In this document: piece after piece, positions 17,468 through 22,580 of the stretch | How the letters are laid out: each line of letters begins with the position of its first letter | How positions within the stretch are numbered: position 1 is the first letter of the stretch | Source of the DNA: Oscillospiraceae bacterium | Lineage (GTDB): Bacteria; Bacillota; Clostridia; Oscillospirales; Oscillospiraceae | NCBI GenBank assembly: GCA_902778115.1 | Contig: CACYWG010000001.1 | Span: 186,001-250,000, forward strand | Length of the DNA stretch: 64,000 nt | Direction: 5' to 3' | Notes under the pieces: generated by a model | Database searches by the model: none | Told to the model about the DNA's origin: nothing | Seen by the model: only the letters and a program-made list of their open reading frames with translations | Translations under genes and position numbers: made by a program

Positions 17468-18675
17468 GTAAAAACGCGGTTTTTCCGCACGATCGCGCCA
17501 TTCGGGGCGCAGGCCGGAAGCTTCAGATGAAATTCCATCATCGCGCGGCGGGTGTCTTCGATCTCCTCCCCCTCCGGGCCGAAGATCTGACCGGCGCGGA
17601 AGGATACCGGCGCTTTGCCGGGCAGCAGCAGCTCCAGCTCGTCGCCGCGGAAGAACTTGTTGCGCTGTGTGAGCAGGGCGTTCCCCTCCTCGTCGCATTC
17701 CTCGACGACGGCGACTACGTCGGCCGTCGCGCTGTAGGACGCTTCCCCGTAATGCTGTCCCGGATCGCCAAAATAGAAGCCGGTGCTGTAAGGGCGGTGA
17801 CTGAGCTTCTCGGTCTCCTCTACCCAGAGCGGGTCGAGCGGCTTTCGCTCGATCGCCGCATCCAGCGCCTGACGGTAAGCGTTGGTGACGACCGCCGTGT
17901 AGTAGGCCGACTTCATCCGTCCCTCGATTTTGAAGCTGCTGATCCCGGCGTCCAGAAGCTCCGGCAGATGCTCAATCATGCGCATATCGCGGGAGTTCAT
18001 GATATAGGTGCCGCCGTCCTCGGTGATTTCAAAGTACTGTCCCGGGCGCTTTTCCTCTACCAGATGGTACTTCCAGCGGCATGGCTGGGCGCATTCGCCG
18101 CGGTTGGCATCGCGCCCGGTGAGGTAATTGGACAGCAGACAGCGGCCGGAAAAGGACACGCACATCGCGCCGTGGACGAAGGCCTCCAGCCGAAGCTCCG
18201 GCGGTGTATTGGCACGGATCCGGCGGATATCTTCCAGCTTTGTCTCGCGGGCCAGCACAACGGTGTCCGCCCCGAGCTCATAAAGAGCGTTGGCCGACGC
18301 GCTGTTGATGACGCCGAATTGGGTACTCACATGCCGAGCTACGCGCGGGGCATGCTTTTTCGCCAGACTCAGTACTCCGAGATCCGCAATGATTATCGCG
18401 TCCACGCCGATCTCCTGCAGGAAGCCGAGATAGCGCGGCAGCGGCGCAAGTTCGTTTTCCAGCGGGAGCGTATTGCAGGTGACATAGAGCTTTGCTCCGG
18501 CAGTATGGGCAAGGGCGACCGCCGCCTCCAGCTCATCATCGCCGAAATTGGCCGAAGCGGCACGCATCCCGTAGGCATGTCCGGCGAGATACACAGCGTC
18601 CGCACCGTAGAGCAGCGCCATGCGCAGCCGCTCCATATCACCGGCCGGCGAAAGTAGTTCCGGTCGATCAGCCAT
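17464..18675 (-). CDS. U32 family peptidase-like protein (TrhP/YrrO type)
   Basis: A 403-residue U32 family protein. It starts RPELLSPAGDMERLRMALLYGADAVYLAG, the typical N-terminus, and carries the diagnostic CVSFSGRC ... GRDANRGECAQPCRW signature, whose four cysteines can hold an iron-sulfur cluster. In Bacillus the YrrN/YrrO (TrhP) members take part in 5-hydroxyuridine formation at tRNA position 34, and proteolysis is doubtful for most of the family. The ATG at 18675 lies within ATGGCTGA and overlaps the mltG stop by 8 bases. The mltG-yrrN/O neighbourhood is the same as in Bacillus. Exact subfamily not settled. Confidence 0.88.
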   Translation of the reverse strand: MADRPELLSPAGDMERLRMALLYGADAVYLAGHAYGMRAASANFGDDELEAAVALAHTAGAKLYVTCNTLPLENELAPLPRYLGFLQEIGVDAIIIADLGVLSLAKKHAPRVARHVSTQFGVINSASANALYELGADTVVLARETKLEDIRRIRANTPPELRLEAFVHGAMCVSFSGRCLLSNYLTGRDANRGECAQPCRWKYHLVEEKRPGQYFEITEDGGTYIMNSRDMRMIEHLPELLDAGISSFKIEGRMKSAYYTAVVTNAYRQALDAAIERKPLDPLWVEETEKLSHRPYSTGFYFGDPGQHYGEASYSATADVVAVVEECDEEGNALLTQRNKFFRGDELELLLPGKAPVSFRAGQIFGPEGEEIEDTRRAMMEFHLKLPACAPNGAIVRKNRVFT

Positions 18676-20119
18676 AGCTCTGCGTAGCGACGAAGGCGTC
18701 AAAGTCTTCCGCATTAGTAAAGAACTCATGTCTGCCGGTCTCCGTATTGAGCGCATAGAAATAATAATTCGTCGATTCCGGATTCAGCGCGGCCTTGATC
18801 GAATCAAGTCCCGGGTTGCAGATCGGCGTGGGCGGCAGGCCGGTGTAGCGGCGGGTGTTATACGGCGAATCATAGGCCAGCATTTCCGCCGTCGGTGCGC
18901 CCTCGTGCTCAGGGAATACATAGAGGATGGAGGCGTCGATGCCGAGCGTCATGCCCTCTCTCAGGCGGTTATTGATTACGGAAGAAATCAAAGCACGGTC
19001 GTCATAATCGGTCTCCGGATCCACCGCGGCCTCCTTCTCGATCAGCGAGGCAATGATGACGATCTGTCTCATGTTCAGGTTGCGGTCGCTGGCCTGCTTG
19101 AGCATATCCGCCGTCAGCAGATAATGGAAGTTCTCCAGGAATTTATTGATCGCGCTGGATGCCTGCATGCCGACATAGAACTGATAGGTATCCGGGAACA
19201 GGAAGCCCTCCAGACGGGTCGGATCGCCGGCAGCCTGACTGTTGAGGAAGGAATAGTTATACTTGTAATTGGCGGCTGCCTCCATCAGATCCTCATAACT
19301 GCAGACCTCTTTTTCCTCCAGGCGGCGGAAGATCTGCTCCATGGTGAAGCCTTCGGGGAAGGTGACGTCAATGGTCATGGCAGCGCCGGAACCGGCGCGC
19401 ATGTTCTGGACCAGTGCGCGATAGTCGAAGCTGGATTTCAGCTCATAATTGCCAGGCGTGACCTTTCTGTCTGCGTGTGAGATCCTGCAGAAAAATTCAA
19501 ACAGCCACTTGTATTGAATGAGCCCTGCTTCCTTCAGCGCATCGGACACATAGGAGATGTCGGCGCTGCGCACGGTTTTCGTGCCGACCACATTGCCGTC
19601 CTTGTCCAGTTCGTCCACGGTTTTCGTCTCAAATACCGAAGTCGGCAGATTGACGACGGCAGTGAAGGTCTCCTTGTTCAGTGCCAGCGCGTCGCTGGCC
19701 GCCATCCAGGCCAGACAAGCGAGGATGATGCTGACGCAGACGATAAAAACAAAGTACATCAGTCCGCCGATACAACCGCTGCGGGATTCCCTGCTTTGGC
19801 GTACAGGATGGTAATCTCTCTCGCTCACCGGGTCGCCGGTGTAGTTATGTGCCTCTTCGCCGCTCTCATCCAGAAACAGCTTGTCCACGGACTTCAGCGC
19901 ATTTTCCTTGGCTTTCTGAATGTGTGCGGCCGTTTCGGACCCTGTCTGAGGAGGCGCGGCATCCTCCGGCTTTTTCTCCGTGGGCTCAGTCGGATTCGTC
20001 TCATCCGTTTCAGGCGCCGAGATGCCCTCCCACAGAGCATCATCCTTCTTTTTTGACAAGGCCTCTCCCTTATCCTGCTGTTCAAACAGCTGATTGATTT
20101 TATCCAATTCTTCAGCCAT
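18668..20119 (-). CDS. mltG: endolytic murein transglycosylase MltG
   Basis: MltG cuts nascent glycan strands at the membrane. The 483-residue protein has a long charged cytoplasmic N-terminus (about 1-115, rich in Glu/Pro/Thr), one membrane helix near 120-142 (LMYFVFIVCVSIILACLAWMA) and the extracytoplasmic YceG domain with VTFPEGFTMEQIF, LEGFLFPDTYQF, the catalytic glutamate in IIASLIEKEA, and YNTRRYTGLPPTPICNPG. The SD AGGAGG lies just upstream. It is the first gene of a pair with the U32 protein. Confidence 0.94.
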   Translation of the reverse strand: MAEELDKINQLFEQQDKGEALSKKKDDALWEGISAPETDETNPTEPTEKKPEDAAPPQTGSETAAHIQKAKENALKSVDKLFLDESGEEAHNYTGDPVSERDYHPVRQSRESRSGCIGGLMYFVFIVCVSIILACLAWMAASDALALNKETFTAVVNLPTSVFETKTVDELDKDGNVVGTKTVRSADISYVSDALKEAGLIQYKWLFEFFCRISHADRKVTPGNYELKSSFDYRALVQNMRAGSGAAMTIDVTFPEGFTMEQIFRRLEEKEVCSYEDLMEAAANYKYNYSFLNSQAAGDPTRLEGFLFPDTYQFYVGMQASSAINKFLENFHYLLTADMLKQASDRNLNMRQIVIIASLIEKEAAVDPETDYDDRALISSVINNRLREGMTLGIDASILYVFPEHEGAPTAEMLAYDSPYNTRRYTGLPPTPICNPGLDSIKAALNPESTNYYFYALNTETGRHEFFTNAEDFDAFVATQSYG

Positions 20120-20273
20120 TTCTGACCTCCTAGGAAATCGTGATTCACGCGTTTTTCGCCTATGGCATAGGATGGCATGAACGGCAGGCGCTCTGCAAGC
20201 CGATCACATTCGCTGCTGTCCGCCGCGCGGGACGCCGTGAATCAAATCATCGCGCGCGGAGAAAGGAACAATC

Positions 20274-20423
20274 ATGTTCTGCAATTCCTGCAATAACAGC
20301 TCCATCTGGCTCATCATCCTGATCATCATCCTCTTCGGCTGGGGCGGCAACGGTTTCGGCTGCGGCTGTGGCTGCGGCTGTGAGAGCAACAACAACTGCG
20401 GCTGTGGCTGCGGCTGCAACTGA
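20274..20423 (+). CDS. 49-residue Cys/Gly-repeat membrane peptide
   Basis: ATG with AGAAAGGA 7 bases upstream, 49 residues, then a strong terminator 18 bases after the stop. Residues 1-10 include Cys3 and Cys6; 11-23 are hydrophobic (IWLIILIIILFGW), enough for one short membrane segment. The C-terminal half has two blocks of alternating Gly and Cys, at 29-36 and 42-48, split by ESNNN. Ten of the 49 residues are cysteine. It resembles in outline the very short YjcZ-type or Cys-rich spore and envelope peptides of Bacillota, but I do not recognise the family. Metal binding or disulfide cross-linking is a guess. It lies alone between two minus-strand operons. Confidence 0.7.
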   Translation: MFCNSCNNSSIWLIILIIILFGWGGNGFGCGCGCGCESNNNCGCGCGCN

Positions 20424-20440
20424 GAGAACTAAACATGCCT

Positions 20441-20467
20441 GGGGCTTCTTCGGAAGCCCCTCTTTTA
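20441..20467. terminator. terminator between Cys-rich peptide gene and tmk
   Basis: GGGGCTTC (TTCG) GAAGCCCC with a TCTTTTATTT tail: a tetraloop hairpin ending the plus-strand gene; it also sits directly at the 3' end of tmk. Confidence 0.85.
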
Positions 20468-21136
20468 TTTGACGGCATTCAGGATCAGCCGATAGATCTC
20501 TTGGTTCTTTTCTTCGATGTCACGTTCTTTCCCGTCCTTCAGGAAAGAGATCTTTGCCCAGCCGTAATAGTCTGCGGCAAGGCGAGCCGTTTTTAAACAG
20601 CGCTCCAGATAACGCACATCTTTTTCGTGAATGTCCGCGCTGGTGTTTGTCTTTTCCTGCCGGCGCTTCATGCGGGCGAGGGAGGTTTCAATGTCCACAT
20701 CCAGATAGATCACCAGATCCGGGACCGGCAGGCCCATCTTTCCGTATTCCAGATCGGACAGCCAGGCGAAATAATCCGGCAGCTCGTCCTCCGGAAGCTT
20801 AGACCCCTGATGCACCGCGTTGGAGGTGGTGTAGCGGTCAGACAGGATCAATCCGCCCTGATGATAAATTTCACCCCAGTCCTCCCGGTAGGAAGCAAAG
20901 CGGTCAACGGCGTAAAAGGTAGAGGCCGTATAGGCGTTCACGTCCTCCGGGCGGGAGCCGAACTGCCCGCCGAGATACATGCGGATCAGCGCGCTGCTGT
21001 CTTTATCATAGCGCGGAAAAACGATATGATGATAGTTGATCCCATCGGACTCCATTCTCGCGCAGAGGCGGCGGTACTGCGCGGATTTTCCGCTGCCGTC
21101 GATGCCCTCCAGCACAATCAGTTTTCCCTTGTTCAT
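20465..21136 (-). CDS. tmk: thymidylate kinase
   Basis: Phosphorylates dTMP to dTDP. The 223-residue protein begins MNKGKLIVLEGIDGSGKS, where GIDGSGKS is the P-loop. The DRYTTSNAVHQG segment (DR of the substrate site) and VPDLVIYLDVDIETSLARMKRR are typical, and the LID region carries RRQEKTNTSADIHE. It is slightly longer than E. coli Tmk. The ATG at 21136 overlaps the TGA of the transferase gene by 4 bases; the longer upstream frame is a shadow. It is last in the sirtuin-transferase-tmk operon. Confidence 0.92.
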   Translation of the reverse strand: MNKGKLIVLEGIDGSGKSAQYRRLCARMESDGINYHHIVFPRYDKDSSALIRMYLGGQFGSRPEDVNAYTASTFYAVDRFASYREDWGEIYHQGGLILSDRYTTSNAVHQGSKLPEDELPDYFAWLSDLEYGKMGLPVPDLVIYLDVDIETSLARMKRRQEKTNTSADIHEKDVRYLERCLKTARLAADYYGWAKISFLKDGKERDIEEKNQEIYRLILNAVK

Positions 21137-21867
21137 GCTTTCTTCCTGCCTCTTTCTTTCATCGCTGCCCGGAGTATGCCGGGCAGACGGATCATTCGCG
21201 TAATGCGTTTCGGCTCCTGCAGCAGCCGGAACAGCCACTCCAGGCCAAGTCTGCGCCAGAGCAGCGGAGCACGGCGGATCCTTCCGGAAAAAACATCCAG
21301 CGCCCCGCCGAGTCCGATCATCAGAACGCCGGGCAGCACGGGACTGTAGCTTTTCATCCACAGCTCCTGCCGCGGAGAACCGAGACAGACGAGCAGCAGC
21401 TCCGCACCGCTTCGACGGATCTCATCCGTCAGAGCGGTTTCTTCCGTAGACGAATCATAACCGTGATGCGTCCCTGCGATCCGCAGTCCGGGAAATCGGC
21501 GCGACAGGTTCTCGCCTGCAAGCTGCGCAACACCCGGCTTTGCGCCCAGCAGATAAACGCTGCCGCCGCGTTCAGCCAATTCTTTCATCAGCCCCGAAGC
21601 AAAATCGATGCCGGGCAGACGGTGATAAAGCGGCCTGCCCAGGATCTTCGACGCCCAGATCATCCCGACGCCGTCCGGCAGGATCAGATCCGCGGACAAG
21701 ATCGCCTCCCGCAGCGCGGGATCTTTCATGGCTGCCATCACGATCTCCGGGTTCGGCGTCACCGCATAGACTCCCTTGTCCGATCCGATCAGGCTGAGTG
21801 CGTTTTCAATGATTTCAATCGGTTCACCATCGTCAAAGGGAATACCAAAGCATTCGGTTTTGGTCAT
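21133..21867 (-). CDS. WecG/TagA/CpsF family glycosyltransferase
   Basis: A 244-residue enzyme of the GT26 family, which adds N-acetylmannosamine (or glucose) to a lipid-linked GlcNAc in wall teichoic acid or polysaccharide synthesis at the inner face of the membrane. Typical segments are YAVTPNPEIVMAAMKDP, ADLILPDGVGMIWASKILG, LPGIDFASGLM, VYLLGAKPGV and LVCLGSPRQELWM. The C-terminus is basic (RLPGILRAAMKERGRKKA), as in membrane-associated members. Start and stop both overlap neighbours by 4 bases. No other teichoic acid gene is nearby, so the polymer is unknown. Confidence 0.92.
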   Translation of the reverse strand: MTKTECFGIPFDDGEPIEIIENALSLIGSDKGVYAVTPNPEIVMAAMKDPALREAILSADLILPDGVGMIWASKILGRPLYHRLPGIDFASGLMKELAERGGSVYLLGAKPGVAQLAGENLSRRFPGLRIAGTHHGYDSSTEETALTDEIRRSGAELLLVCLGSPRQELWMKSYSPVLPGVLMIGLGGALDVFSGRIRRAPLLWRRLGLEWLFRLLQEPKRITRMIRLPGILRAAMKERGRKKA

Positions 21868-22580
21868 ACCTGGCTGAAAACCTCTCCGATCTTTTCATGG
21901 ATCACCAGATCCGCAAAGCTGTCGTAAGGCGTTTCGCTCAGATTGACGAGGGCGAGCTTGGTGCCGCGGTAATAACGGATCAGGCCGGCTGCCGGGTATA
22001 CGTTCAGCGAGGTGCCGCCGACGATGAGCACGTCCGCATGACGGATATAGTGCAGCGCGCTGCTCATGATGTCCTGGTCCAGCGGCTCCTCATAGAGCAC
22101 GATATCCGGGCGGATCACGCCGCCGCAGTCACAGCGCGGAACGCCCTCGCCATGGTTCATCCGCTCCGCGGGGTAGGGCTTGCGGCAGCGGCAGCAGTAG
22201 GCGCGCCAAATGCTGCCGTGCAGTTCAAGCACGTTTTTGCTGCCGGCTGCCTGGTGGAGACCGTCGATATTCTGCGTGATCACCGCGCGGAGCTTGCCTT
22301 CCGCCTCCAACTCCGCCAGGCGCTTGTGCGCGCGGTTCGGCTGTACGTTCTCGATGACCAGCTTTTCCCGGTGGAAGCGGTAATACTCCTCGGGATCGCG
22401 CGCAAAGAAGCTGGCGCTCAGGATCGTCTCCGGGGGATACTTCCACTTCTGATTGTACAGGCCGTCCACGCTGCGGAAATCGGGGATCCCGCTCTCCGTA
22501 CTGACGCCTGCGCCGCCGAAGAAGACGATGTTGTCGCTTTCTTCGATCCACTGTTTCAAGCGTTTGATGCCGCTGTCCAT
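21864..22580 (-). CDS. cobB: NAD-dependent protein deacylase, sirtuin
   Basis: A 238-residue Sir2 protein that removes acyl groups from lysine using NAD. Motifs in order: GGAGVSTESGIPDFR (NAD site), TQNIDGLHQAAG, the catalytic LHGS, a four-cysteine zinc site (CCRCRK and RCDCGG), and VGGTSLNVYPAAG. The ATG at 22580 has GGGGGTGA 6 bases upstream. It heads a three-gene operon with the transferase and tmk, each overlapping by 4 bases, behind its own promoter. Confidence 0.94.
   Translation of the reverse strand: MDSGIKRLKQWIEESDNIVFFGGAGVSTESGIPDFRSVDGLYNQKWKYPPETILSASFFARDPEEYYRFHREKLVIENVQPNRAHKRLAELEAEGKLRAVITQNIDGLHQAAGSKNVLELHGSIWRAYCCRCRKPYPAERMNHGEGVPRCDCGGVIRPDIVLYEEPLDQDIMSSALHYIRHADVLIVGGTSLNVYPAAGLIRYYRGTKLALVNLSETPYDSFADLVIHEKIGEVFSQV

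Follow-up and report, generated by a model that had tools for sequence, protein, structure and literature searches.

A conserved Gly-Cys-Asn peptide of gut clostridia with a sigma-K-type promoter, a candidate component of the late spore envelope

Results

A short Gly-Cys-Asn gene beside mltG and tmk

The window, that is, the whole 64-kb stretch of DNA that was analysed, carries on its forward strand a small gene at 20274..20423, which runs from an ATG at 20274 to a TGA at 20421-20423 and encodes a 49-residue Gly-Cys-Asn product with a hydrophobic helix (MFCNSCNNSSIWLIILIIILFGWGGNGFGCGCGCGCESNNNCGCGCGCN), as judged from the open reading frame, profile relatives, the pN/pS ratio and an AlphaFold2 model. 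The 3′ end of a Shine-Dalgarno sequence, AGAAAGG (20260..20266, forward strand), lies 7 bases ahead of the ATG; the motif AG/GG-AAAGG recurs in 91/108 family loci, 67 of the 108 having been retrieved by a DNA pattern that already contained it. Downstream we found an intrinsic-terminator-like stem-loop with a T-rich tail after it (20441..20460, forward strand; one found versus 0.2 expected in shuffles). The coordinates, the AGAAAGG and this stem bear out the first-pass annotation, which had described a well-framed gene of 49 codons, complete with Shine-Dalgarno sequence, stop and terminator. Its count of ten Cys was likewise correct (residues 3, 6, 30, 32, 34, 36, 42, 44, 46 and 48), eight of them lying in two alternating GC blocks. 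A membrane segment had also been claimed; a hydrophobic helix is indeed predicted, but the strongly hydrophobic stretch, W12-F21, spans just ~10-12 residues, a core that is short for a membrane span. The AlphaFold2 model showed a single helix at residues 9-24 and a disordered tail at a mean pLDDT of 54 (low confidence); this predicted model is poor and adds little on the structure of the peptide.

Two conserved neighbours lie outside the unit on the reverse strand. The divergent one is mltG, of the YceG-like family (18668..20119; PF02618, E 8e-74), and the convergent one is tmk, encoding thymidylate kinase (20465..21361; PF02223, E 5e-20, residues 84-253), whose true start is probably inside that ORF. 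The peptide gene thus placed appears, from its predicted signals, to form a lone transcription unit bounded by a promoter and a terminator of its own. We compared 108 loci, comprising the window, 40 better-scoring profile places and 67 of 73 loci retrieved by the DNA pattern, from which two chance, one frameshifted and three duplicate records had been dropped. The usual site of the gene is between mltG and tmk or fthC: the mltG cluster was directly seen at 79/108 loci (94 when ORFs taken as antisense to mltG are counted), and tmk, an antisense frame of tmk or 5-formyltetrahydrofolate cyclo-ligase follows downstream at 85/108. A minority with short leaders sits elsewhere, e.g. L087, L096, L098, L103, L111, L113, L115 and L119.

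The flanking genes are housekeeping genes (YceG-like, thymidylate kinase, peptidase U32, 5-formyltetrahydrofolate cyclo-ligase), and no coat operon adjoins the peptide gene. This setting bears on whether the product could be a RiPP or bacteriocin precursor with the Gly-Cys tail as its modified core. Thiazole-forming precursors have Gly/Cys-rich tails, which those of the present peptides recall, but no modification or export genes are among these housekeeping neighbours, and a lone gene broadly conserved at one locus argues against such a role, which we consider very improbable.

A widespread peptide family

A single-sequence search found relatives in 26/200 genomes of the same family, three of the matches (L016, L025, L029) looking degenerate or chance. 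The first-pass annotation had proposed a homolog search, and a profile built from alignment A1, which holds 25 members, did find relatives in 122/200 same-family genomes and 82/106 genera at E 0.01. At E 0.001, the same profile was positive in 48/291 genomes of a class draw and 5/398 of a phylum draw. The five phylum positives were two from the same family, one from the same order and two others, namely a Gly-rich protein without GC blocks (L059) and the beginning of an unrelated long protein (L061); this make-up indicates few false positives. Of the 73 named records matched by a DNA pattern spanning the leader end and start codon, 69 encode the peptide intact; L155 carries a frameshift, a contig end truncates L156, and L136 and L143 are chance matches. 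The 71 genuine records are titled, e.g., Oscillospiraceae, Ruminococcaceae, Clostridiales, Eubacteriales, Clostridia, Bacillota and Candidatus Limivicinus. On viral contigs, 61 stretches fit the pattern and none was confirmed; on genome contigs, none of 593 pattern stretches from alignment A2 was confirmed by tblastn, where low-complexity filtering perhaps masks the query.

The coding sequence has a pN/pS of 0.29 over the first 27 codons (400 non-independent pairs of similar members). A chance ORF, with DNA or RNA as the thing conserved, would be compatible with the conserved leader; this ratio, relatives in 82 genera, and a start, stop and terminator that are retained while the DNA diverges make it hardly credible. 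By these sequence criteria the peptide gene is real and conserved. Among side observations, four class-level members (L068, L069, L072, L073) have two hydrophobic segments with Gly-Cys repeats between them, as if two peptides had been fused, and tandem pairs of peptide genes occur at G633:C30:5402-5718, G670:C19:182957-183222, G736:C191:48-271 and G098:C1:421328-421615. The copies L026 and L155 look damaged, with no in-frame start codon or a frameshift, through sequencing error or decay.

The family consensus reads M(F)C-N/G-rich, a Trp, ~10 Ile/Leu/Val, a Phe, and then Gly/Cys/Asn. The 107 peptides compared average 47.7 residues and consist of 22% Gly, 22% Cys, 19% Asn and 11% Ile; Lys is absent from all of them, five have one Arg each, and His is almost absent. 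Each peptide has 6-16 Cys, and the number and spacing of Cys and the length of the blocks vary freely among relatives. GC blocks are gained and lost freely, so the tail behaves like a repeat rather than a site of exact form. We weighed against this a metal-binding spore peptide, anchored by its helix, whose clustered thiolates would bind Zn, Cu or Fe either on the surface of the spore or inside the mother cell. The abundance of Cys in every member and the dense Gly-Cys repeats suit this proposal, and a sigma-K timing (see below) fits it equally; however, a defined metal site would seldom vary so freely, there is hardly any His, and no metal gene is found among the nearest neighbours, so that metal binding appears improbable. 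The helix invites another reading, a non-structural peptide of the mother-cell membrane that acts as a small subunit or regulator of a membrane protein, or is pore-like and, towards the end of sporulation, helps the mother cell lyse or solutes move. The conserved Trp and Ile/Leu helix, the small size and the sigma-K-type promoter are in keeping with it. Across members, however, the Gly-Cys tails are retained together with the helix, although a subunit that was just a helix could do without them, and the locus offers no linked membrane partner; we give this reading a low probability.

Searches against known families

The first-pass annotation had stated that no family could be named, and this was borne out: the window peptide had no Pfam or NCBIfam match at E 10, and family members, as well as ten divergent relatives, gave only weak TatA or single-helix matches in these collections. 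The best of them, NF047942 (TatA/E), reached E 3.4e-4 and matched 4/25 members and not the window peptide. TatA/E was rejected as the family, the matches lying under the curated cut-off and, in the divergent relatives, being confined to the hydrophobic helix and far below it. The YjcZ model, PF09680, matched neither the window peptide at E 10 nor the A1 members, and it was found in 0/61 same-family genomes while a B. subtilis control was positive. A match to an annotated spore-peptide family, which had been named as grounds for refuting the proposal, was therefore not found in Pfam, in NCBIfam, or with PF09680 over the 61 genomes. A PDB match to a serum lectin was weak (E 0.018) and was put down to composition. 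The label 'Chorion class high-cysteine' was discarded as a published name, its use in the literature concerning silkworm. Judged by titles and the beginnings of abstracts, none of the open-licence articles retrieved on small Cys/Gly spore peptides deals with the family. Taken together, the family is widespread in gut clostridia and is without a name or a Pfam or NCBIfam model.

A sigma-K-type promoter upstream of the peptide gene

Upstream of the gene we identified a putative promoter with the -35 element AC at 20147..20148 and the -10 element CATAGGAT at 20166..20173, both on the forward strand. The family consensus of the -10 element, CATANNAT, was present within 200 nt upstream in 102/108 loci, whereas shuffles gave 3.2 on average and never more than 7; two of the six loci without it have <65 nt of upstream sequence. 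The block also gave 37 reverse-strand matches because CATAGTATG is nearly palindromic. When the 102 upstream regions were aligned, a C stood 18 bases ahead of the -10 block in 95% of them, mostly within GTAAC or TCAC, which indicates the promoter layout AC-N17-CATANNAT. Searching both strands of the window with AC-N16/17-CATANNATR returned the promoter of the peptide gene as the sole match. Among divergent relatives, AC-N16/17-CATANNNT was seen by eye at no fewer than 11 of 22 phylum- and class-level loci. A sigma-54 promoter was considered and rejected, as the GG-GC distance misfits and many members, inspected by eye, have no GC, the C. difficile SigL sequence being TTGGCA...TTGC. According to a study of C. 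difficile, the -10 sequences used by sigma-E and sigma-K are much alike and it is the -35 element that tells the two apart, ATA vs AC; its sigma-K regulon table includes dpaA (PMC3789822).

The promoter was then compared with those of dpaA and spoIVA from the same clade. A position weight matrix was built from 74 non-redundant family promoters with the window excluded, and its cut-off was set so that 1% of shuffled sequences would pass. It accepted 12/30 dpaA upstream regions and that of the window genome's own dpaA, and 1/20 spoIVA upstream regions; the 102/107 peptide genes that passed are largely the training set, and the lower scores of dpaA are to be read against peptide genes that trained the matrix. 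The spoIVA-type arrangement ATA-N15/18-CATANNGT was found in 6/20 spoIVA, 0/30 dpaA and 0/107 peptide genes. These patterns suggest that the peptide promoter resembles the dpaA promoters of its clade and not the spoIVA ones. The likeness to dpaA (dipicolinate synthase) extends to the window's own genome and concerns the promoter type alone; the genes are unrelated. The own-genome dpaA promoter lies within ~30 nt of the dpaA start, and thus leaves no room for a long leader with a hairpin. Many of the clade's dpaA promoters (L213-L242, L252) have GAATANNAT at -10 instead of CATANNAT, with the same AC-N17 spacing.

Over the whole genome from which the window comes, AC-N17-CATANNATG occurred six times, versus three for the reversed pattern. 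The sites comprise those of the peptide gene, L246 and L248 and three unconvincing ones. At L248 (G000:C2:59429) a sigma-K-type promoter stands immediately ahead of a gene for an amino-acid kinase, which is probably aspartokinase and as such plausible for dipicolinate synthesis. L246 (G000:C1:125638) precedes a Se/S-carrier-like gene (PF11823) that is followed by a likely cysteine desulfurase; it possibly reflects a handling of sulfur by the mother cell at a late stage, which is of note given how rich in Cys the peptide is. From its promoter sequence, the peptide gene is very likely under sigma-K control.

A leader hairpin against the Shine-Dalgarno sequence

The inferred 5′ leader, ~95 nt with a predicted start site, occupies 20174..20273 on the forward strand, and most orthologues have ~80-145 nt between the -10 element and the ATG. 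A pairing search placed a candidate hairpin directly against the Shine-Dalgarno sequence, with a 5′ arm CCGCGCG at 20223..20229, for which covariation comes mainly from one aligned pair, and a 3′ arm CGCGCGG at 20253..20259 (both on the forward strand). In the 91 members with the AG/GG-AAAGG motif, this motif directly follows an arm able to pair upstream, and the arms reach at least 4 pairs in 88 of the 91, counts that are partly forced because the script sought the best-pairing partner. The mean stem score was 17.5, against a mean of 12.3 and a maximum of 13.1 for shuffled upstream DNA (200 rounds). The commonest arms are CCGCGC/GCGCGG (35) and CCGCAC/GTGCGG (24), and CCGTGC/GCACGG and CCACGC/GCGTGG are single or rare.

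When 68 non-redundant leaders were aligned without regard to pairing, 87.7% of the cells paired and the covariation score was 0.239 vs 0.180 (sd 0.010), a value reached by 0/500 shuffles. Nearly all the two-sided change is in one pair (GC 37, AU 20); columns 101-104 could hardly covary, as they are largely fixed by the search pattern. RNAalifold returned no consensus structure for the family leaders, the folding energy was ordinary and not convincing in six sequences (z -0.17 to -1.74), and Rfam gave nothing at gathering score over 19000-22000 of the window. The hairpin is moderately supported as a predicted element, and by touching the Shine-Dalgarno sequence it might, on weak support, time or limit translation.

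Co-occurrence with sporulation genes

The window genome (G000) encodes SpoIVA (E 8.5e-187) and has two genes that strongly resemble those of mother-cell sigma factors, at 244.9 and 240.6 bits; neither reaches the curated cut-off of the sigma-K model. In the class draw, SpoIVA was present in 44/48 peptide-positive vs 165/243 peptide-negative genomes (p 4e-4, Fisher, ignoring phylogeny), and among genomes at least 90% complete in 37/38 vs 141/199 (p 1.5e-4, ignoring phylogeny). The family draw gave 111/122 vs 58/78 (p 0.002, again ignoring phylogeny). Nine of the 11 peptide-positive family genomes without a SpoIVA match are <90% complete; the good genomes with the peptide and no SpoIVA are, from the family draw, G072 (95%) and G125 (100%, with a weak peptide match) and, from the class draw, G798. 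Within the window's genus, G004 and G174 have neither SpoIVA nor the peptide, and G109 has SpoIVA with no peptide detected by the profile.

We considered whether these patterns could instead reflect a vegetative or stress peptide of the envelope whose link with spores is incidental, most of the clade sporulating. SpoIVA is present in 169/200 family genomes, so within-family co-occurrence is weakly informative, and the few peptide-positive genomes without SpoIVA point the same way. Against this, no sigma-70-type promoter was found upstream of the peptide gene, and the sigma-K-type promoter is nearly universal in the family and common to dpaA, leaving the vegetative reading quite improbable. The spore or coat link suggested in the first-pass annotation gains independent support from the sigma-K-type promoter (102/108), its dpaA-like and not spoIVA-like form, and the co-occurrence with SpoIVA; the annotation's interpretation as a whole, which also named metal-binding and disulfide-linked roles as candidates, is partly supported.

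In G005, G022, G023, G024, G029 and G032, sigma-K-like genes are split near model position 115, and the halves lie ~9-12 kb apart on shared contigs (e.g. G024:C51:13381-22972 and G023:C19:5696-18018). From this arrangement, skin-like elements probably interrupt sigK in several genera of the window's family.

Discussion

We propose that late in sporulation the mother-cell sigma-K RNA polymerase would transcribe the peptide gene alone, a step for which the sequence evidence is strong, and by established knowledge of sporulation such control implies that the mother cell makes the peptide once engulfment is over, at the time when the coat and outer layers are put together. The peptide lacks Lys and has an Ile/Leu helix after a Trp and Asn/Gly/Cys ends. 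A location in the spore envelope is probable. That the peptide is a small structural component of the late envelope has, in our view, about an even chance; besides the promoter and the SpoIVA co-occurrence, the lone gene with its terminator, its conserved place, and the lack of Lys and the 6-16 Cys of the 107 peptides speak for it. The helix may insert into or stack on the outer forespore membrane or the inner coat, and the Gly-Cys tails may link neighbouring peptides or coat proteins by disulfides, so that the product would be an insoluble, membrane-anchored mesh. Disulfide cross-linking is suggested by analogy with CotY arrays and CdeC/CdeM, and we rate it slightly below even. In a bolder version, the tiny Gly-Cys-Asn peptides, free of Lys, would build a spore layer not described before, a polythiol film anchored in the membrane and lying at the outer forespore membrane, which would be made across much of the class and be governed by a sigma-K promoter and a translation-controlling hairpin; we regard it as rather unlikely.

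By analogy, the structural peptide proposed here would work like YjcZ, CotY or CdeC and yet be distinct from each. YjcZ is Gly-rich with a hydrophobic run and, to our knowledge, is without Gly-Cys blocks. The likeness to this Bacillus protein is that of a tiny peptide in a sigma-K regulon, that of B. subtilis (PMC517825); the difference is that its model, PF09680, fails to match the window peptide or the family. The kind of peptide is therefore known, and the present family is a different sequence group. CotY and CotZ of Bacillus share the richness in Cys, and CotY is described in PMC4950064 as a self-assembling Cys-rich coat protein that forms strong, disulfide-linked arrays. It differs in having 161 residues and 15 Cys, vs 49 residues and 10 Cys in the window peptide, which gave no profile match to any coat family in Pfam or NCBIfam. 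CdeC and CdeM of C. difficile are likewise Cys-rich and under sigma-K; PMC9542656 describes them as spore-surface proteins of 44.7 and 19.1 kDa from few species, and these descriptions set them apart from the peptide.

Little is known of spore coats outside Bacillus and C. difficile, and spores are believed to carry many gut clostridia from host to host. A family of tiny genes that reaches 82/106, or about three quarters, of the genera sampled would be a missing part of the coat and would serve as a marker of late sporulation. The sigma-K promoter as defined here across the clade also opens the regulon of uncultured gut spore-formers to searches.
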